NCBI GenBank assembly: GCA_029974855.1
Contig: JARKQO010000512.1
Span: forward strand, 1-8,617
Direction: 5' to 3'
Length of the DNA: 8,617 nucleotides
DNA from: Eubacteriales bacterium
Lineage (GTDB): Bacteria > Bacillota_A > Clostridia > Christensenellales > Aristaeellaceae
Positions 1 to 8,617 of the stretch are shown here, piece after piece; position 1 is the first letter of the stretch, and every line of letters starts with the position of its first letter. Both the position numbers and the translations under genes were made by a program. The notes below the pieces were generated by a model. The model was not told the origin of the DNA. It saw only the letters and a program-made list of their open reading frames with translations, and did no database searches.

Positions 1-1226
1 AGGGCAATGCCTTGGGTATCGACCCCCGGCAGATTTCCTTCCGCCACTGCATGGACATGAACGACCGGCAGCTGCGCCAGATCGTCACCGGCATCGGCGG
101 GGTGAAAAACGGCGTGGTCCGGGAGGATGGTTTTGACATCACCGCCGCCAGCGAGGTGATGGCCGCCTTCTGCCTGGCGGGGGACTTGGCGGATTTGAAG
201 GCCCGGCTGGGCCGCATGGTGGTGGCCCGCACCTATGGGGGCGCTCCCGTCACCGCCGGGGAGGTGGGGGCCGCCGGGGCCATGACCGCTTTGCTGCGGG
301 ACGCCTTCTCCCCCAATTTGATCCAGACCATCGACGGTACCCCCTGCCTGATGCACGGGGGCCCCTTCGCCAACATCGCCCACGGCTGCAACAGCGTGGT
401 GGCCACCAAGCTGGCCTTGCGCATGGCGGATTATGTGGTCACCGAGGCGGGCTTTGGCGCGGACTTGGGGGCGGAGAAATTTTTGGACATCAAGTGCCGC
501 ATGAACGGCCTGTGGCCCAGCGTGGTGGTGCTGGTGGCGACCGTCAGGGCCCTGAAGCACCACGGTGGGGTGGAGAAGGCCGATTTGTCCGCCGAAAACC
601 TGCCCGCCTTGGAAAAGGGCATGGAGAACCTGCTGGCCCATGTGGGCAACATCCGGGAGGTGTGGAAGCTGCCCGTGGTGGTGGCTGTCAACCGCTTCGC
701 CTCGGACACCCAGGCGGAGCTGGACCTGCTGGGACAGGCCCTGGCGGCCCAGGGCGTGACCATGGCCCCCTGCGAAGGCTGGGCCCGGGGTGGAAAGGGC
801 GTGATGGAGTTGGCAGAAGCGGTCTGCCGCATCGCCGACGCCGGCGCTGCCACGCCCAGCTACACCTATGAGGACGGCGCGCCCCTCACGGAGAAGATCG
901 AGACCATCGCCCGGCGGATCTACCATGCCAAGGCCGTGGAGTTTTCCGCCGACGCGAAAAAGACTTTGGCCCAGCTTCAGGGGGAAGGGTACGGGAACGT
1001 GCCGGTGTGCATCGCCAAGACCCAGTACAGCATCAGCGACAACCCCAAGCTGCTGGGAGCCCCCCGGGATTTCACCCTCACCATCCGCTCCGCCCGGCTC
1101 AGCGCCGGGGCGGGCTTCGTGGTGGCCTTCGCCGGGGAGATCATCGCTATGCCGGGGCTGCCCAAGGCCCCCGCCGCCCTGTCCATTGACGTAAACGAGA
1201 TGGGCGAAATCCAGGGGCTGTTTTAG
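1..1226 (+). CDS. fhs: Formate--tetrahydrofolate ligase, 5'-truncated by window edge
   Basis: This enzyme makes 10-formyl-THF from formate, THF and ATP in the cytoplasm, feeding one-carbon metabolism (purines, or the methyl branch of acetogenesis). The reading frame is already open at the window start (first complete codon at base 3, reading GNALGIDPRQ), so the TTG at 12 is internal and not a start. About 407 residues are visible against a usual length near 556, so roughly 150 N-terminal residues, including the GKTTT-type P-loop, lie upstream. Family landmarks seen are RTYGGAPVTA, the TIDGTPCLMHGGPFANIAHG block, EAGFGADLGAEKF, the second FTHFS signature VATVRALKHHGG (bases 534-569), and the C-terminal AGEIIAMPGLPKAP followed by DVNEMGEIQGLF. 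The last block matches the family's normal end, so the 3' end is intact. No convincing terminator follows, so read-through into the Lrp gene 47 bases on is possible. The identification is secure. Confidence 0.96.
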   Translation, partial: GNALGIDPRQISFRHCMDMNDRQLRQIVTGIGGVKNGVVREDGFDITAASEVMAAFCLAGDLADLKARLGRMVVARTYGGAPVTAGEVGAAGAMTALLRDAFSPNLIQTIDGTPCLMHGGPFANIAHGCNSVVATKLALRMADYVVTEAGFGADLGAEKFLDIKCRMNGLWPSVVVLVATVRALKHHGGVEKADLSAENLPALEKGMENLLAHVGNIREVWKLPVVVAVNRFASDTQAELDLLGQALAAQGVTMAPCEGWARGGKGVMELAEAVCRIADAGAATPSYTYEDGAPLTEKIETIARRIYHAKAVEFSADAKKTLAQLQGEGYGNVPVCIAKTQYSISDNPKLLGAPRDFTLTIRSARLSAGAGFVVAFAGEIIAMPGLPKAPAALSIDVNEMGEIQGLF

Positions 1227-1260
1227 CCCCGGGAGGCCCGCCCGGATACCAAAGCATAAC

Positions 1261-1266
1261 AGGAGG
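1261..1266 (+). promoter_or_regulatory. Ribosome binding site of the Lrp-family gene
   Basis: A perfect AGGAGG lies 7 bases before the ATG at 1274 and fixes that start. Confidence 0.85.
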
Positions 1267-1273
1267 AAATATC

Positions 1274-1777
1274 ATGCAGTGCAATCCCGATTCCTTTGAA
1301 ATGGAGCTATTGTCGTTACTGGGCCAGGACTGCCGCCTGCCCTTGGAGAAGCTGTCCACCATGCTGGGCAAGCCCCTGGAGCAGGTGGCCGGGGCCATCC
1401 AGGACCTGGAAAAGCGCGGGGTGATTTTGCGCTATTCCCCGGTGATCAACTGGGACCGCACCGACCGGGAGCGGGTGGAGGCCATGATCGAGGTGCGGGT
1501 CACCCCCCAGCGGGACCAGGGCTTTGACGCCATCGCCAAGCGCATTTACCGCTTTGACGAAGTGAAAAGCGTGTACCTGATGAGCGGGGCCTACGATTTG
1601 CTGCTGCTGGTGGAGGCCCACAGCCTCAAGGAGCTGGCCTACTTCGTCAGCACCAAGCTCTCCACCTTGGAAACCGTCACCGGCACCGCCACCCACTTCG
1701 TGCTCAAGCGCTACAAGAGCGACGGGGTGATCTTTGAAGGGGACGGTGAGGACAAGCGACTGGCGGTGATGGCGTAG
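1274..1777 (+). CDS. Lrp/AsnC-family transcriptional regulator
   Basis: A 167-residue DNA-binding regulator. Residues about 7-55 form an AsnC-type winged helix-turn-helix: a helix around FEMELLSLLGQD, a recognition region around PLEKLSTMLGKPLEQV, and the wing GVILRYSPVINWD. Residues about 70-150 form the RAM/ligand-binding domain that in this family binds amino acids and drives oligomerisation; SVYLMSGAYDLLLLVEA and TATHFVLKRYKSDGVIF are typical of Firmicutes members. The length is normal for the family. The stop TAG shares its G with the GTG start of the aminotransferase, so the two are almost certainly co-transcribed and translationally coupled. From family knowledge, the regulator probably senses an amino acid that is substrate or product of its neighbour and controls this unit. 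The ligand cannot be read from sequence. Confidence 0.93.
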   Translation: MQCNPDSFEMELLSLLGQDCRLPLEKLSTMLGKPLEQVAGAIQDLEKRGVILRYSPVINWDRTDRERVEAMIEVRVTPQRDQGFDAIAKRIYRFDEVKSVYLMSGAYDLLLLVEAHSLKELAYFVSTKLSTLETVTGTATHFVLKRYKSDGVIFEGDGEDKRLAVMA

Positions 1778-2955
1778 TGGACTATGCCCGCTATGTGAAC
1801 CCGGCCATCGCCCGGGTGCCCAAGTCCGGCATCCGGAAGTTCTTCGACGTGGCCGCCACCATGCCCTCCGCCATCTCTTTGGGGGTGGGGGAGCCGGACT
1901 TCGTAACCCCCTACCACATCCGCAACGCCGCCATCGACAGCATCCTGGACGGGGAAACCGCCTATACCAGCAACTGGGGCACCCCGGGCCTGCGCAAGGA
2001 AATCGCCTACTATCTTCAGCACCGCTACGGTTGCGCCTACGACCCTGGCAAGGAGATTCTGGTGACGGTGGGAGCCAGCGAGGGCATTGATCTGTCCTTG
2101 CGCACTTTGCTGCAGCCCGGGGATGAGGTGCTGGTGCCCGAGCCCAGCTACGTCAGCTACGCCCCCAGCGTGGTGTTTGCCGGGGGCGAGCCCCGGGCCA
2201 TCCCCACCTGCGAGGACAACGGCTTTGTGCTGACCCCTCAGGCGCTGGAGGCGGCCATTACCCCCAAAACCAAGGCCGTGATTTTGCCCTATCCCAACAA
2301 TCCCACCGGCGCGGTGATCCTCCGCCAGGAGCTGCTGGAGCTGTGCCAGGTGATCCTGCGGCATGACCTGCTGGTCATCAGCGACGAGATTTACAGCGAG
2401 CTCACCTACCAGCCCGAGGGCCACGTGAGCATCGCCAGCCTGCCGGGGATGTGGGAGCGGACGATTTTGCTGAACGGCTTCAGCAAGGCCTTCGCCATGA
2501 CCGGCTGGCGGGTGGGGTATTTATGCGCCCCCGCCCCCCTCACCGACATCATGGTGAAGATCCACCAGTACACCATCCTGTGCGCCTCCCGGCAGGGCCA
2601 GGTGGCGGCGGAGGAAGCGCTGAAGCAGGGCCGGGAGGACAACTATGCCGATGTGATCGCCATGCGCCAAAGCTACGACCAGCGCCGCAGGCTGATGCTG
2701 GCAGCCTTCCGGGAGATGGGCCTGAGCTGCTTTGAGCCCATGGGGGCCTTCTATGTGTTCCCCGGCATCAAAAAGACCGGGCTTTCCAGCGAGGAATTCT
2801 GCCAGCGCCTGCTTCGGGAAAAGGAAGTGGTCTGCGTGCCCGGCACGGCCTTTGGGGCCTCCGGCGAAGGGCACATCCGCTGCTGCTACGCCACCGCCTT
2901 GGACAGGCTTCAGGAGGCCCTGCGCCGCATGGCGGATTTTGTGGGGTCCCTGTAA
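1777..2955 (+). CDS. PLP-dependent class I/II aminotransferase
   Basis: A 392-residue cytoplasmic fold-type I aminotransferase that moves an amino group between an amino acid and a 2-oxo acid. The catalytic features are present: NNPTG at 174-178 (N175 contacts the cofactor), D203 and Y206 in SDEIYSELTY, the Schiff-base lysine K237 in FSKAFAMTGWRVGY, and the substrate-carboxylate arginine R368 in GEGHIRCCYA. The N-terminal SLGVGEPDF motif is also typical. The start is a GTG overlapping the stop of the Lrp gene by one base. The reading frame gives the normal N-terminus (DYARYVNPAIARVPKSGIRKFF), and no strong separate ribosome binding site is seen, which suits coupling to the upstream gene. Related enzymes are annotated as aspartate, aromatic or alanine aminotransferases. 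The substrate cannot be assigned from sequence alone, so no symbol is given. Confidence 0.94.
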   Translation: MDYARYVNPAIARVPKSGIRKFFDVAATMPSAISLGVGEPDFVTPYHIRNAAIDSILDGETAYTSNWGTPGLRKEIAYYLQHRYGCAYDPGKEILVTVGASEGIDLSLRTLLQPGDEVLVPEPSYVSYAPSVVFAGGEPRAIPTCEDNGFVLTPQALEAAITPKTKAVILPYPNNPTGAVILRQELLELCQVILRHDLLVISDEIYSELTYQPEGHVSIASLPGMWERTILLNGFSKAFAMTGWRVGYLCAPAPLTDIMVKIHQYTILCASRQGQVAAEEALKQGREDNYADVIAMRQSYDQRRRLMLAAFREMGLSCFEPMGAFYVFPGIKKTGLSSEEFCQRLLREKEVVCVPGTAFGASGEGHIRCCYATALDRLQEALRRMADFVGSL

Positions 2956-2985
2956 AAAACGGCGCTCATTGGAATGTTTTGGATG

Positions 2986-3015
2986 GGAGCTTCGTCTTGT
3001 AGGTGGGAAGGCTCC
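2986..3015 (+). other. Bulged hairpin in the aminotransferase-capA gap
   Basis: GGAGCTTC (2986-2993) can pair with GAAGGCTCC (3007-3015) with one bulged G, leaving a 13-base loop. No T-run follows, so it is not a standard terminator. It could be an mRNA-stabilising or leader structure, or chance in GC-rich DNA. I see no confident promoter in the 110-base gap. Confidence 0.25.
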
Positions 3016-3053
3016 TGGTATCGGGCAAAGGGCCCTGTAACCACCGGACCAAT

Positions 3054-3060
3054 GGAGGGA
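3054..3060 (+). promoter_or_regulatory. Ribosome binding site of the capA-like gene
   Basis: GGAGGGA sits 5 bases before the ATG at 3066. It selects that start over longer in-frame extensions, which would put an uncharacteristic sequence ahead of the signal peptide. Confidence 0.85.
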
Positions 3061-3065
3061 ACGAA

Positions 3066-4244
3066 ATGTCGAAAAAGTGGATTTCATTGCTTTTGATTGT
3101 GGCCATGTGCCTGACGGGCTTGGTGCTGTCCATGGCGGAGGAGGACGAGGAGGACGTGTCCCTGGCGGATTACTTCGCCCAGCAGTCCGGGGAGGACCCG
3201 GCCCAGAGCGGCCCGGACCCCGCCGCCACCCCCACCCCAGAGGAGAAGAAGCAGCCCGTGTACGAGCTGGACGGCTCCACCGTGATCACCATGAGCTTCA
3301 CCGGGGACGTGACCATCGGCAGCAACGTCCAGTCCAGCGGCAAGTCTATTTTTGAGAAGGAGTTGGACAAGCAGAAGGGGGATATCCTCTTCCCCTTCCG
3401 CAATGTCAAGCACATCTTTGACGCGGACGATCTCACCGTGGTGAACTTCGAGGGTACCCTCACCACCGCGGGCCGGAACCGGGACAAGCTGGATAATGAC
3501 TATCTCTTCCGGGCTCCGCCGGAATACGCCGTCATGCTGCCCCAGGGCGGCGTGGACGCGGTATCCTTTGAGAACAACCACGCCATGGACATGGGGCAGG
3601 AGGGCAACGACGAAACCAAGCAGGTACTCCTGAGCCAGGGCATCCCCTACGCCAGCGAGGATGAGCCCGCCATTTTGGAGATCAAGGGGGTCAAGATCGG
3701 CCTTTTGGCCTACCAGACCTTCGACGGCAGGCATGATGAGCTCATCGAGAAGGTGCCTGCGGACATCGCTGCCCTGCGCCAGGAGGGCTGCGATATCGTG
3801 GTGGTGAACTACCACTGGGGCGCGGAAATGGATTACGCCCCCAACAACAACCAGATCCGGCTGGGACGGGCCACCATCGACGGCGGTGCGGACCTGGTGG
3901 TGGGGCACCACAGCCACCGGATCAACCCCATCGAGTATTACAACGGCAAGTACATCTGCTATTCCCTGGGGAATTTCAGCTTCGCGGGCAACGCCAAGCC
4001 CAGCGATATGGCCACCTTCATCTTCCAGATCAAGATGCGGGTGAAGGACGGGAATGTCACAAGCGACAGCTTCATCATCATCCCCTGCCGCATCTCCAGC
4101 CGGACGGACTACAACGACTTCGCCCCCACCCCCTACACCAAGGACCAGAATGTGGAAAGCGTGCTCAGCGTGCTGAAAAAGAACGGCGCGAAGCTTCAGT
4201 ACGCCGTTCAGGACTATCCGCTGAAATGGCCGGGGGAGGAATAA
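3066..4244 (+). CDS. CapA-family secreted protein (PGA_cap metallophosphatase-like)
   Basis: A 392-residue exported protein. Residues 1-24 form a signal peptide: MSKK, a hydrophobic core, then a likely signal peptidase I site LSMA|EE. C15 is not in a good lipobox. Residues 25-65 are an acidic, proline-rich linker (EEDEED, then DPAATPTPEE) expected to hold the domain away from the membrane. Residues about 72-345 are the CapA/PGA_cap domain, with the calcineurin-like pattern: TGD at 79-81, NFEG at 127-130, NNH at 170-172, NYHWGAE at 248-254, GHHSHRINPIE at 280-290 and YSLGNFSF at 299-306. The canonical form of the fifth motif is GHHPH, and here Ser replaces Pro. The family includes B. subtilis CapA/PgsA, needed for poly-gamma-glutamate export, but many stand-alone members have unknown substrates. 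No capB or capC lies nearby, so a capsule role is not supported; envelope hydrolysis or phosphatase activity is equally possible. Confidence 0.88.
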   Translation: MSKKWISLLLIVAMCLTGLVLSMAEEDEEDVSLADYFAQQSGEDPAQSGPDPAATPTPEEKKQPVYELDGSTVITMSFTGDVTIGSNVQSSGKSIFEKELDKQKGDILFPFRNVKHIFDADDLTVVNFEGTLTTAGRNRDKLDNDYLFRAPPEYAVMLPQGGVDAVSFENNHAMDMGQEGNDETKQVLLSQGIPYASEDEPAILEIKGVKIGLLAYQTFDGRHDELIEKVPADIAALRQEGCDIVVVNYHWGAEMDYAPNNNQIRLGRATIDGGADLVVGHHSHRINPIEYYNGKYICYSLGNFSFAGNAKPSDMATFIFQIKMRVKDGNVTSDSFIIIPCRISSRTDYNDFAPTPYTKDQNVESVLSVLKKNGAKLQYAVQDYPLKWPGEE

Positions 4245-4345: not shown

Positions 4346-4387
4346 CCTGGCAACAGAGAAACGGGGGAGTGGCCGGCCCTGCCCGTT
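4346..4387 (-). terminator. Possible terminator of the minus-strand operon
   Basis: AACGGG (4360-4365) pairs with CCCGTT (4382-4387), and a central GGCCGGCC (4371-4378) adds inner pairing. Read on the minus strand, the stem is followed by a moderately T-rich TTTCTCTGTTG. The hairpin overlaps the last bases of the ABC-like gene's stop codon, and the inner stem has mismatches, so this is only a candidate. Confidence 0.35.
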
Positions 4388-5850
4388 CAAAGGCCCGCAT
4401 CCGGCTGGTATGGATACTCCTCCTTGGCAAACAGCTTTCCGTCCTGAAGGCAGTACACCTGCCCGGGAAGGCTGGTTTCGGGCAGGGTTTCGGGCAGGTA
4501 GGAGGAAACGATGAGCACCGCCGTGCCACGGCCCAGCAGCTTCGCCATCATCCGCTCGGTGACGCTGTCCACCTGATAATCCATGCCGGTAAAGGGGTTG
4601 ATACAGACGATGACCGAGGGATGGAAGATGAGCCATTTGCAGTAGGCAACCTTTTGGAGCTGGATTGGGGTCAGCCGGTGCAAAGGGATATCCCATAAGT
4701 CCTCACCGCACAGCTCCAGGGCGGTCTTACGGAGGTTGTCCCGAAAGCGCCGCCGGAACCACAGTCCCCGCACCCGGCCCACCAGCATGATGGCCAAATT
4801 GTCGTAGACCGTCATGTTGCGCAGCAGCATTTTTTCCTGGGGGTTGCCCTCCACCACGCAAAGGCCCAGGCGTTGCGCCGCCTTAATGCTGGCGGGCCGG
4901 TAGGGCTTTTCCCCCAGAAAGATGGCGCCGCTTTCCGGGGCTAGGTCTCCCCGCAGCAAAGAGAGGAAATCGGAGCGGCTCAAATCGTCCAGATGCAGCA
5001 CCTTGAGCATCTTTCCCTTGGGCAGGGAAAAGGAAATGTCGTGAAGCCCTTTGGTGCTCACGGAGTGGAACGCCAGCGCCACATCCTTGGGCTCCGGGCG
5101 GTTGAAGCGCTTGGGAGGGACGCTGAGGGAATCGGCGAAGCCCAGGTCCTGCCACAGGGCGCTGCGCAGCTGCTCCACCCCCAGCTCCGAGGAACGGAAC
5201 AGCCCCGTGGTCTGCCCGTGCTTGATGATGGCGATGTTGTCCGTATGCTTGAAAATCACGTCCCAGAAGCTTTCGATGATCACCAGGCCGTAGCCTTCCT
5301 TTTTCAATTGGGCGGCGATGGCCAGCACCCCGTCCATTTCCGACGGGGTCAGATAGGAGGACAGGTCCGCCAACACGATGATCTTCTTTTTCAGCATATA
5401 GGCCTTCACCAGCTCCAAGGAGATGGCCTGCTGGTGGCTCAGCTTTTCCACGGGGCATCGGATGTCCACGTTGAGATGGAACTGGTCCACATAGTCCTCC
5501 AGCATTTCCCGATAGACCTTGAGATTCACCATCAGGGAAGGAAGCTTGGTGAACAGGATGTTTTCAAAGATACTCAGCCGGTCGCTGAGGGTGGTGCCCT
5601 TGCTGATGACGTAGATATTCTGCTGGATGATGTGAGGGTAGGTCACGATTTTCTCGTCGATGTACATCCTGCCGGAGGTGAAGGACACGTCCCCCCGCAG
5701 CACCTTGATGAAGGCTTCCTTTTCGTAGAGGTTGGCAAACAGGATGCCCAGCGCCTCCCCCGCCAGCACATTGAGATACACGCCCCTGAGCGCCTCGTAT
5801 AGGTTGATGTGCAGCCGCCCGTTATCAATGCGCAAAAGTTCTTTTTTCAT
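4387..5850 (-). CDS. Degenerate tandem ABC ATPase-like protein (RbsA/MglA fold, likely no ATPase activity)
   Basis: This 487-residue protein has the two-domain layout of sugar-import ATPases such as RbsA (about 500 residues), but its nucleotide-binding motifs are broken in both halves. First half: the P-loop segment G31-G53 aligns without gaps to the RbsA pattern, but GENGAGKST has become FANLYEKEA (38-46), keeping only the lysine (K44). The Q-loop Gln is replaced by K84. The signature is LSHQQ (137-141), with Gln for the key Gly. Walker B is IIVLADLS, with Ala161-Asp162 for Asp-Glu. The H-loop His is Ser194. Second half: G279-G301 keeps the spacing but reads HLDDLSRSD at the P-loop. The signature is LTPIQLQKV (393-401), and Walker B reads VIVCINPF, with Ile417-Asn418 for Asp-Glu. 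Flanking family features survive (SIFENI, TVYDNLAIML, LIVSSYLPETL). It starts within the stop of the histidine kinase gene (ATGA), so it is co-translated with it. No permease or binding-protein gene is adjacent. A regulatory or scaffold role with the two-component system is inferred; ATP hydrolysis looks unlikely. Confidence 0.85.
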   Translation of the reverse strand: MKKELLRIDNGRLHINLYEALRGVYLNVLAGEALGILFANLYEKEAFIKVLRGDVSFTSGRMYIDEKIVTYPHIIQQNIYVISKGTTLSDRLSIFENILFTKLPSLMVNLKVYREMLEDYVDQFHLNVDIRCPVEKLSHQQAISLELVKAYMLKKKIIVLADLSSYLTPSEMDGVLAIAAQLKKEGYGLVIIESFWDVIFKHTDNIAIIKHGQTTGLFRSSELGVEQLRSALWQDLGFADSLSVPPKRFNRPEPKDVALAFHSVSTKGLHDISFSLPKGKMLKVLHLDDLSRSDFLSLLRGDLAPESGAIFLGEKPYRPASIKAAQRLGLCVVEGNPQEKMLLRNMTVYDNLAIMLVGRVRGLWFRRRFRDNLRKTALELCGEDLWDIPLHRLTPIQLQKVAYCKWLIFHPSVIVCINPFTGMDYQVDSVTERMMAKLLGRGTAVLIVSSYLPETLPETSLPGQVYCLQDGKLFAKEEYPYQPDAGL

Positions 5851-6881
5851 AGCTCGTTGGCGCCTTCCGAAAGCCGCAGCTTGGGCAGGTTGATGCGCAC
5901 CTCCGTGCCCATGCCCAGGATGCTGTAAAGCTGGATGCCGTACTCCTCGCCAAAAAGGAGCTTGATGCGCTGAGCCACGTTGCGCAGGGCGATGCCGCCC
6001 CGGCGCTTCTTTTCATCCCGGATGTAGCTGAGGGCCACCTTTTCCAGCCGATGGTTGATCATGCTGACCTGCTCGCTCTCAATGCCTACGCCGTTGTCGG
6101 AGATGTTGATCAGCACCCGTTTTTCCGTGGTCTCCAGCCGCACGGTGACCTTTCCGCCCTCCGCCTTGTTTTCCAGCCCGTGGTAGATGGCGTTTTCGAT
6201 GATGGGCTGCAAGGTGAGCTTGGGGATTTGGCACAGCTTCAGCGATTCATCGTCGTCGGCGATGATGACCTCCATCTTCAGCCTGTCGCCGAAGCGGTAT
6301 TGCTGGATGGTGAAGTAGTTGTCAACGTTTTCCAGCTCGTCCTCGATGGTCACCAGGTTTCCGGTTTCCGTGATGGTGTACCGGAAGAAGGTGGACAGCG
6401 CCTCCGTGGTTTGGGCAATGCCCAAAGCCCCCTCGCTCAGCGCGTCGCCCCGGATCGCCTCCAGGGTGTTGTACAGGAAATGCGGGTTGATCTGGTTTTG
6501 CAGAGCCAAGTATTCCGCCTGTTTTTTGGACATCTCAATCACGTCCTGCTTGCCCAGCAGGTGGTTGAAATGGCCGATCATCTTCTCGTCCTCGGGGGAG
6601 AGGAAGATGTCGTGATGCAGCAGCTCATCATAGATCTGTTCGCTGACAAACATCCGCTGGATGTGCCTCAGGCGCCGGTATGGGGTCACCAGGCCAAAAA
6701 AGGCGGCGGCCATGAGGGAGAGCAGCACGCCCAGATACACCAGCACCTGGGGCAAAGTAACGCCGGTTTTGGGGTGCATCTCGGACACCTGAAACAGGCG
6801 GTTGACGCACACGAGGCCAAACAGGGCGAAGGCCGCCAACAGGGCAAAGGCGCGGGCGGAAAGATAGCGCTTGATGTTCAT
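5847..6881 (-). CDS. YesM-type sensor histidine kinase without extracytoplasmic sensor
   Basis: A 344-residue membrane kinase. Two membrane segments are visible, about residues 9-27 and 44-66, joined by a loop of only about 16 residues. Typical YesM-type kinases are near 600 residues with a large extracellular sensing domain, which is absent here. A cytoplasmic linker (67-118) leads to the His_kinase domain, with the phosphoacceptor H134 in NQINPHFLYNTLEAIRG. The HATPase domain has the N-box LQPIIENAIYHG (N230), the G1 box DNGVGI (262-267), GGIALRNVAQRI (295-306) and GMGTEV (323-328). All catalytic motifs look intact. It is expected to phosphorylate the response regulator encoded 29 bases upstream. 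Its stop overlaps the start of the ABC-like gene by four bases. AAAGGA lies 5 bases before the ATG and supports the start. The signal is unknown; sensing through a partner protein or within the membrane is an inference from the missing domain. Confidence 0.94.
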   Translation of the reverse strand: MNIKRYLSARAFALLAAFALFGLVCVNRLFQVSEMHPKTGVTLPQVLVYLGVLLSLMAAAFFGLVTPYRRLRHIQRMFVSEQIYDELLHHDIFLSPEDEKMIGHFNHLLGKQDVIEMSKKQAEYLALQNQINPHFLYNTLEAIRGDALSEGALGIAQTTEALSTFFRYTITETGNLVTIEDELENVDNYFTIQQYRFGDRLKMEVIIADDDESLKLCQIPKLTLQPIIENAIYHGLENKAEGGKVTVRLETTEKRVLINISDNGVGIESEQVSMINHRLEKVALSYIRDEKKRRGGIALRNVAQRIKLLFGEEYGIQLYSILGMGTEVRINLPKLRLSEGANEL

Positions 6882-6910: not shown

Positions 6911-8521
6911 TCAGTTGTAAAGCTTGCGGTATTCCTTGAGGCTGACGCCCGTTTGCTGCCGGAAGCGCTTATAGAAATACTTCATGTCGTTGTAGCCCAC
7001 CTTTTCGGCCACCTCGCTGATGCTCATGTCCGTCTCCACCAGCAGCTCTTTGGCTACGTCGATGCGGGTCTCCATCAGGTAATCCAGAAAGTTCTTGCCG
7101 GTTTCCTTTTTGAAGAGGGTGGAGAGATAGGAGGGGTTTAACCCCACCTCGGAAGCCACGCAGGGAAGGGTGAGAGGCTCGGCGTAATGGTCGTGGATGT
7201 ACTGCTTGGCCTTGCGGATGGGCTTGGTATCCTCTGCCTCCTTGGTTTGCCGCCATTCCTCCATGGTGGTGACGCAGGCGCTTTTCAGCGCCGTGAAGGC
7301 CTCGCTGAGGGAGTGGGCCCCCAAAAGCCGCCGGCGCGTGTCGGCCACCAGGTTTTCAGGGGTGGGCACGCCATTCTCCCGCATGTTGACCTCAAACAGA
7401 ATCAGGATTTCCTGGCAGATCTGAACCACGGACCAACCCGTGAGCTTGCCCATCCTCTTGAGCTTGTCATGGATACCGGCGATGGCGTCCCGCACCCCTT
7501 GGGCGTCCAGCAAAGTGACCCGTTTTTTGAACTCGGCCCGAAAGGCGGCGTCCGCCACCGCGGCCGCGTCAAGGTACAGCGCGTCCGCGGGAGGATACTC
7601 CAGCAGCGCGCCGGCGGGCAAAAGAATGCGCTGCATCATGGCCACCCGCGCCTGATGCACGCATTGGGGCAAGTCGTCAAAGCCGCGTACCACCTCGCTG
7701 ACCGCCACCGAAAGGTCCACCGCCTCAAAGAGGTCCTTCAGCGGCAGCATCATGCCGACGATGCGCTTGAGTTGCTTTTTCAAATCGTCGAACTGCTCGT
7801 GGGAGCCGTTCATCACACAGGCCACATAGCCGTCCGCGATGCCCACCACCATCTCGTGAAGGGCGGGCGCCAGCTGGCTTTCCAGAATATCCTTTACCTT
7901 TTTGTCCAGCAGCATATCGGCCTTGAAGTCGGGCTGGCCCTGGTCGATGGTGGCCTGTACCAGCAGCAGCTGGTAGGCGCCCTCCATCAGATGACAATGA
8001 TACGTTTCATTGACCTGCGCAAGGGTGCGGCGGCTGGCTTCATATTTTTGCGGGTCCATCAGCAATTGGAGGAAATGCTCCCGAAGCTGCTCCATGCTTT
8101 GGTGCATCTGCCGGGCCATGCTCTCCTGCTGCCGGTTGCGGTCAATTTTAGCCTCGTGCTGCTGGACGATTTTATGAAGAATCCGCTCCAGCTCCACTTG
8201 CTTGAGGGGCTTGAGCAGATAATCCTCCACGCCGAATTTGATGGCCTGGCTGGCGTATTCAAATTGCCGGTACCCGCTGACGATGATGAAATGGACATCT
8301 TTATTGGTTTCCCGTACTTTTTGGATGAGCTCGATGCCCGTATATCCGGGCATGCGGATGTCCGTAATCACAATGTCCGGGGAAAGCTCCTGAATTTTCT
8401 GGTAGGCGGATTTTCCGTCATTGACCACGCCTACCACTTTCAACCCCAACGCTTCCCAATTCACCAGATTCATCATCAGGTTGCAAACCTTGATTTCATC
8501 GTCAATGAGCAAGACTTTCAT
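6911..8521 (-). CDS. YesN-type response regulator with AraC DNA-binding domain
   Basis: A 536-residue cytoplasmic transcription factor. Residues 1-120 are a receiver domain: the acidic pocket D7-D8, phosphoacceptor D54 in DIVITDIRMPG, S82 in IIVSGY and K104 in YLLKPL, all canonical. Residues about 108-158 look helical and possibly coiled-coil (LERILHKIVQQHEAK). The central 160-430 region has no motif I recognise, as in many YesN proteins. Residues 435-536 are an AraC/XylS domain with two helix-turn-helix units, around LTLPCVASEVGLNPSYLSTL and MSISEVAEKVGYNDMKYFYK. The ATG at 8521 is chosen because it begins the receiver (MKVLLIDDE) and has AAAGGGG 8 bases upstream. Longer in-frame extension adds sequence unlike a receiver N-terminus. 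The gene is first in a three-gene operon and is the likely partner of the kinase. Family relatives activate carbohydrate-uptake genes, but no target can be named here. Confidence 0.94.
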   Translation of the reverse strand: MKVLLIDDEIKVCNLMMNLVNWEALGLKVVGVVNDGKSAYQKIQELSPDIVITDIRMPGYTGIELIQKVRETNKDVHFIIVSGYRQFEYASQAIKFGVEDYLLKPLKQVELERILHKIVQQHEAKIDRNRQQESMARQMHQSMEQLREHFLQLLMDPQKYEASRRTLAQVNETYHCHLMEGAYQLLLVQATIDQGQPDFKADMLLDKKVKDILESQLAPALHEMVVGIADGYVACVMNGSHEQFDDLKKQLKRIVGMMLPLKDLFEAVDLSVAVSEVVRGFDDLPQCVHQARVAMMQRILLPAGALLEYPPADALYLDAAAVADAAFRAEFKKRVTLLDAQGVRDAIAGIHDKLKRMGKLTGWSVVQICQEILILFEVNMRENGVPTPENLVADTRRRLLGAHSLSEAFTALKSACVTTMEEWRQTKEAEDTKPIRKAKQYIHDHYAEPLTLPCVASEVGLNPSYLSTLFKKETGKNFLDYLMETRIDVAKELLVETDMSISEVAEKVGYNDMKYFYKRFRQQTGVSLKEYRKLYN

Positions 8522-8617
8522 GACGCGCGCCCCTTTCCATGGCCATTTACGGGGGTGAAAAAAAGTGGAGTCAGCGAATAATGCCTTCACCACAATCTTA
8601 GGCTGGCCATTGGTTAT
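8522..8617 (-). other. Upstream region of the two-component operon, cut by the window edge
   Basis: These 96 bases hold the leader of the minus-strand operon. I found no pair of hexamers close enough to a sigma-A promoter to call, so the promoter may lie beyond the window. The 8-base word TGGCCATT occurs twice (8540-8547 and 8604-8611), the only visible repeat. Confidence 0.4.
8530..8536 (-). promoter_or_regulatory. Ribosome binding site of the response regulator
   Basis: On the minus strand AAAGGGG precedes the ATG at 8521 by 8 bases, supporting this start over upstream in-frame codons. Confidence 0.65.

Follow-up and report, generated by a model that had tools for sequence, protein, structure and literature searches.

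Gene content of the window

The window, which is the whole stretch of DNA analyzed here (8,617 nucleotides), carries a compact operon on its minus strand. A YesN-type response regulator gene is followed by a YesM-type sensor histidine kinase gene and, in third place, by a gene for an RbsA-like protein here termed pseudo-RbsA (Table 1). The kinase stop codon and the pseudo-RbsA start codon share a 4-base ATGA overlap. The phospho-acceptor His motif of the kinase and the Asp motif of the regulator are both present. By hydropathy alone, two membrane helices are predicted in the kinase (residues 12–30 and 46–64) with a 15-residue loop between them; such an arrangement, which leaves no ectodomain for sensing, is that of an intramembrane-sensing kinase. 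The plus-strand genes converge on the operon and are ordinary by Pfam. When 391 genomes were searched for the formate-tetrahydrofolate ligase, 112 matched at E 1e-150, and identities among the matches listed reached at most 61%. The window ends before any transporter gene, and an importer partner of its pseudo-RbsA would lie outside it; a CUT2 importer operon divergent from the regulator gene, perhaps including a glycyl-radical enzyme, is predicted beyond position 8617, as in three related loci (L001–L003). The pseudo-RbsA/YesM/YesN family is defined by motif loss in both halves of the RbsA-like protein and by the regulator–kinase–pseudo-RbsA gene order, and the window shows both.

Table 1. 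Features of the window
Feature	Position	Strand	Length	Remarks
Pseudo-RbsA	4387..5850	minus	487 aa	Tandem ABC-fold; both halves without nucleotide-binding motifs
YesM-type sensor histidine kinase	5847..6881	minus	344 aa	NPHFLYN, ENAIYHG, and DNGVGI motifs
YesN-type response regulator	6911..8521	minus	536 aa	Receiver domain with DIVITDIRMPG; C-terminal AraC-type HTH
Stretch upstream of regulator gene	8522..8617	no strand		First 96 bases
Formate-tetrahydrofolate ligase (3' part), AsnC/Lrp regulator, class I/II aminotransferase, PGA_cap protein	3-4244	plus		Pfam assignments

Motif loss and extent of the family

The original prediction described the third gene product as a tandem ABC protein of the RbsA/MglA type with its nucleotide-binding motifs erased in both domains, and both parts of this description were borne out. 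The protein has about 500 residues and a modeled tandem ABC fold, and it shares length, fold, domain order, spacing, and the post-Q-loop [DE]-N-h-F motif with RbsA/MglA/XylG-type (CUT2) ATPases. It differs from them in lacking Walker A, signature, Walker B, and H-loop motifs and in being encoded behind a kinase; the P-loop, signature, and Walker B are gone from both halves. A working ATPase would need at least one composite site with Walker A, signature, and Walker B, and the window protein has none. A frameshift or misread frame was ruled out as the source, since the same motif loss recurs across many genomes. Family members share the N-terminal pattern M-[KR]-x-E-h-h-R and have acquired specific new residues, C-[IV]-[NQ]-P-F at the second Walker B (Walker B2) and NP at the second Q-loop.

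Eleven close relatives of the window protein (33–97% identity) were found, all sharing the motif loss; by pattern, none of the 11 has a signature or a Walker B DEP, and a check for homologues with intact motifs in the same clade accordingly found none. A search with the protein of locus L072, from a sister subfamily, yielded 587 relatives at E 1e-40 or better. One of these (P0047, 88% identical to the L072 protein) comes from Lachnoclostridium phytofermentans, a cultivated species. Where relatives are named in databases, they are called "ribose transport system ATP-binding protein" or "ATP-binding cassette domain-containing protein". In an unrooted tree with long branches flagged, a single branch (SH-aLRT 100, quick method) splits 39 pseudo-RbsA rows from 31 intact RbsA rows.

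A genome scan gave matches in Faecalicatena orotica, Candidatus Mediterraneibacter faecipullorum, and a Eubacteriales MAG (G001), together with a broken copy in Candidatus M. intestinigallinarum; one of the five matches, L005 (Oceanospirillaceae, 23%), was left out. The MAG has at least four paralogues (L001, L014, L015, and L016), each beside its own importer genes. A profile search of 60 genomes from the family of genome G003 (itself included) identified 13 loci in eight genomes, and 17 of the other 18 among the 31 matches listed were intact RbsA. The same type of search in 391 genomes from the class of G003 added 12 genomes other than G003, with a single locus in each. These locus counts are lower bounds, as at most 27 (family) and four (class) candidates were scored per genome. 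In 198 genomes from the order of G330, no match was obtained at E 1e-90, a negative of little weight since there is no known carrier among them.

Gene neighborhood in related loci

The neighborhood was examined in 30 pseudo-RbsA loci from 22 genomes, all located via the pseudo-RbsA protein alone and including some close kin (L060/L061, L063/L064/L065, and L066/L068). The L079 and L082 genes were counted as pseudo-RbsA on the basis of their lost motifs; L018 was rejected as an ordinary intact RbsA operon. A YesM-type kinase gene lies directly upstream of pseudo-RbsA in 29 of the 30 loci, and the full regulator–kinase–pseudo-RbsA order is found in 28. Genes for an RbsC-type permease and a sugar-binding protein occur within nine listed genes in 24 loci; the nearby permease is RbsC-like in these 24/30, one protein having been checked as BPD_transp_2. 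An intact RbsA is encoded as a separate gene in 23/30 loci, and a glycyl-radical enzyme gene or its activase is nearby in 5/30. The unbroken series regulator, kinase, pseudo-RbsA, RbsA, RbsC, and sugar-binding protein occurs in 10/30 loci, with three more having one extra frame inside. In L001–L003, the regulator operon, which includes pseudo-RbsA, is divergent from an operon encoding the glycyl-radical enzyme, binding protein, RbsA, RbsC, and activase.

Six loci show no importer, and five of them end at a contig edge (L063, L066, L070, L075, and L081). L062 is a true exception, with an orphan pseudo-RbsA (L062:9115-10569) whose mapped gene surroundings include no kinase, regulator, or importer; the preceding gene presumably encodes an isoleucyl-tRNA synthetase. 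Across all loci, RbsA-like genes of >420 aa fall into 30 without motifs (one, in L075, with a P-loop) versus 22 with full motifs, and none of the 22 lies directly behind such a kinase. In the L075 protein (L075:9445-10872), the first half retains the P-loop GLRDSGKS and a Walker B-like VILLDD, and it is possible that this protein is an intermediate between RbsA and pseudo-RbsA.

Topology of the adjacent kinases

Hydropathy predicts two membrane helices joined by loops of 3–14 residues in 27 of the 29 adjacent kinases; those of L015 and L075 have no helix at threshold. The L075 kinase, as read, is only 257 aa long and has no predicted membrane helix. These loci also encode three further kinase-like proteins, two with loops of 255 and 273 residues, respectively, and one with eight helices. 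Since the adjacent kinases have almost no extracytoplasmic part, they are unlikely to read an outside sugar alone and probably need an input partner.

One protein-database entry (P0126; 837 aa, from a cluster of three sequences) joins kinase and pseudo-RbsA in a single chain. It was matched in 13/150 genomes (six candidates scored per genome), and no further unbroken fusion was found among the candidates scored in the 150 genomes. In five of the genome matches, a stop codon separates kinase and pseudo-RbsA genes that otherwise share a reading frame; losing that one stop, or an error in sequencing, could be enough to create such a fusion. As evidence for a partnership with the kinase, P0126 is suggestive only.

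Proposed role of pseudo-RbsA

The original prediction proposed a selected pseudo-ATPase acting as a sensor, adaptor, or scaffold. Selection is supported by the uniform degeneracy of the clade relatives and by dN/dS ratios far below 1 (see below), and the conservation of an operon that includes a sensor kinase and regulator, a feature absent from the original prediction, narrows the choice of roles to a specific proposal. We propose that a dead, duplicated RbsA feeds the signal, as an input subunit, into an intramembrane-sensing two-component system that controls its sugar importer, a model to which we assign a probability of roughly 0.6. An RbsA-type importer ATPase would have been duplicated, one copy losing catalysis and becoming a dedicated cytoplasmic third component of a YesM/YesN-type system. 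Pseudo-RbsA would bind the kinase in the cytoplasm and dock either on its cognate permease RbsC, at the coupling surface, or on an RbsC–RbsA complex. When the sugar-loaded binding protein engages the permease, the resulting change would be relayed via the pseudo-ATPase to the kinase; phosphorylation of the regulator would then switch on the nearby importer and catabolic genes. The elements of this model differ in strength. Given the strong gene linkage, pseudo-RbsA is very probably a third component of the kinase/regulator system. The permease as the origin of the signal is a more tentative assignment, with odds just short of even, and it presupposes the putative docking.

Conservation, coevolution, and alternative roles

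Conservation was calculated for 12 motif blocks relative to the family mean. Conservation is highest in the segment behind each Q-loop (1.58 and 1.44) and in the rewritten Walker B2 (1.45); Walker B1 reaches 1.31, and the two P-loops are lowest (0.92 and 0.80). N97 and N351 are invariant in 39 pseudo-RbsA and 31 intact RbsA rows. In ABC importers, the stretch behind the Q-loop lies next to the groove that receives the permease's coupling helix. The same profile bears on an alternative in which pseudo-RbsA is a cytosolic metabolite sensor, with remodeled pockets that bind a small molecule (e.g., a sugar phosphate) and relay its presence to the kinase, with no permease contact. The linkage to the kinase fits this reading equally well. 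Furthermore, the new conserved residues at Walker B2 and Q-loop 2 occupy former catalytic places and could equally serve a new ligand; the Walker B2 block is level with the second post-Q-loop segment, and P419 and F420 are found in 36/39 and 33/39 pseudo-RbsA rows, respectively. However, the P-loops that would line such pockets are the least conserved blocks, and the partial correlation with RbsC described below would be unexpected. A metabolite sensor is considered unlikely.

Coevolution was assessed in 19 operons (the near-duplicates L065, L071, and L082 were excluded, here and in the within-group resemblance tests). Spearman correlations of pseudo-RbsA distances were 0.86 with the regulator, 0.82 with the kinase, 0.75 with the binding protein, 0.69 with RbsA, and 0.63 with RbsC. 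The partial correlation between pseudo-RbsA and RbsC given the kinase was 0.34 (p 0.003), compared with 0.12 (p 0.085) for kinase and RbsC given pseudo-RbsA and 0.19 (p 0.012) for regulator and RbsC given pseudo-RbsA. This bridge pattern holds in a group of 11 operons (0.42 for pseudo-RbsA and RbsC given the kinase versus 0.08 for kinase and RbsC given pseudo-RbsA) but is absent from the remaining group of eight (0.30 versus 0.41). Coevolution thus lends weak support to pseudo-RbsA as a bridge between permease and kinase. Pseudo-RbsA and its cognate RbsA were also compared in 21 pairs (L065 dropped from 22). No resemblance was detected in the docking segments (p 0.75 for both combined); for the helical parts, p was 0.012 and 0.045. 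Whole-length resemblance (p 0.0006) weakens within groups (p 0.17 and 0.026) and is thus partly group structure, so no weight is placed on it.

These distances also bear on the possibility that pseudo-RbsA is an importer brake or exchangeable subunit, reducing transport by competing with RbsA at the RbsC dimer, the kinase being merely a neighbor. Many loci do encode an intact RbsA and RbsC in the same operon, which would favor this reading. Nevertheless, linkage to the kinase (29/30 loci) is at least as tight as linkage to the importer (24/30, contig ends included), and pseudo-RbsA distances track those of the kinase and regulator more closely than those of RbsA and RbsC. The placement of pseudo-RbsA in the regulator operon of L001–L003, divergent from the importer, and the one kinase fusion also speak against a brake, which we regard as improbable.

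Another alternative is an ATP-gated switch, in which pseudo-RbsA still binds ATP but does not hydrolyze it. Of the 587 sister-subfamily matches, 120 were listed; the signature SGG[NQ]Q and Walker B hhhxDEP are absent from all of these 120, two contain P-loop-like strings, and 22 keep N..GK[ST] remnants; on this sequence evidence, motif loss outside the window's clade is graded. Together with the GK(S) remnants of the first P-loop in L062, L066, L068, and L072 and the P-loop of L075, the remnants would suit ATP binding. Against it, P-loop, signature, and Walker B are all missing from each half of the window protein and, by pattern, from its 11 relatives, making a switch of this kind very improbable.

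Four pairs gave dN/dS ratios of 0.061, 0.108, 0.115, and 0.171 for the pseudo-RbsA gene; L064 is part of two of these pairs, and none comes from the window's own clade. Two further pairs were saturated and gave no value. These comparisons show purifying selection on pseudo-RbsA in sister loci and uphold the earlier claim that its motif loss is not simple decay. The regulator and kinase genes gave 0.011–0.156, the pseudo-RbsA gene being higher than both in all four pairs, and intact RbsA gave 0.063 in one pair. A decaying pseudogene, to which the motif loss itself and a copy in Ca. M. intestinigallinarum with stops in its first part (L004:3200-4480) might point, is scarcely credible given these ratios, the open frames, the operon conserved across 22 genomes, and the new conserved residues. 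The gene adjoining the L004 copy probably encodes a transposase.

Relation to known sensory systems

To our knowledge, no class of three-component sugar sensing is known in which a dead copy of a transport motor, replacing the live one on the permease, makes that permease the receptor of an ectodomain-less kinase. That pseudo-RbsA represents such a widespread class is conceivable, although the balance is somewhat against it. No description of pseudo-RbsA in a two-component operon was found in the open-access literature (for broad topics, among the best matches only). What would be new is a variant of transporter-coupled two-component sensing, transporter-sensing kinases and three-component systems with binding proteins being known already. 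If the model is correct, proteins named as transport motors would be signaling subunits in many Clostridia, the signal input of ectodomain-less YesM-type kinases would be explained, and the family would show clearly how a motor protein can become a signaling adaptor.

XylFII-LytS is a clostridial three-component sugar system in which an extracellular binding protein acts on the extracellular domains of the kinase. In CuaDSR, as set out in PMC10384115, a kinase and a regulator govern sugar uptake in clostridia together with an extracellular binding protein that acts on the kinase ectodomain. Both systems resemble the model for the window family in serving sugar uptake through a kinase, a regulator, and a transporter-related third protein. 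The third protein here differs in having an ABC fold and a presumably cytoplasmic location, and the window kinase differs in having no ectodomain. In BceAB-BceRS, according to PMC7828314 and PMC10314905, a kinase with no extracellular sensing domain and an ABC transporter form a sensory complex; the presumed ligand-binding element of Bce permeases is an extracellular loop of 200–250 residues, and BceA is an active ATPase. The gene order of the window family likewise places an ectodomain-less kinase alongside an ABC system, but its third gene encodes a separate motif-less nucleotide-binding domain protein with sugar-importer kin. Heterodimeric ABC transporters with one degenerate nucleotide site still work (e.g., PMC12038006); pseudo-RbsA shares the loss of catalytic residues but differs from them in that both sites are gone and its gene lies beside that of a kinase. 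Kinase mutations in C. phytofermentans are described in PMC3899296; one of the kinases has a predicted extracytoplasmic domain there, and the other does not lie beside a transporter.

A split glycyl-radical enzyme

The glycyl-radical enzyme is split in three genomes (L001:4361-6924, L002:4569-7104, and L003:4563-7106). A PFL-like body of 746–755 aa that has no glycyl loop is accompanied by a separate RVAGYS protein of 81–91 aa, with a gap of 22–57 bases between the two genes; family searches covered L003 and the L001 body. An exact-phrase search of the open-access literature found no report of such a split enzyme. The glycyl-radical enzyme body of L079 likewise stops short of the loop.
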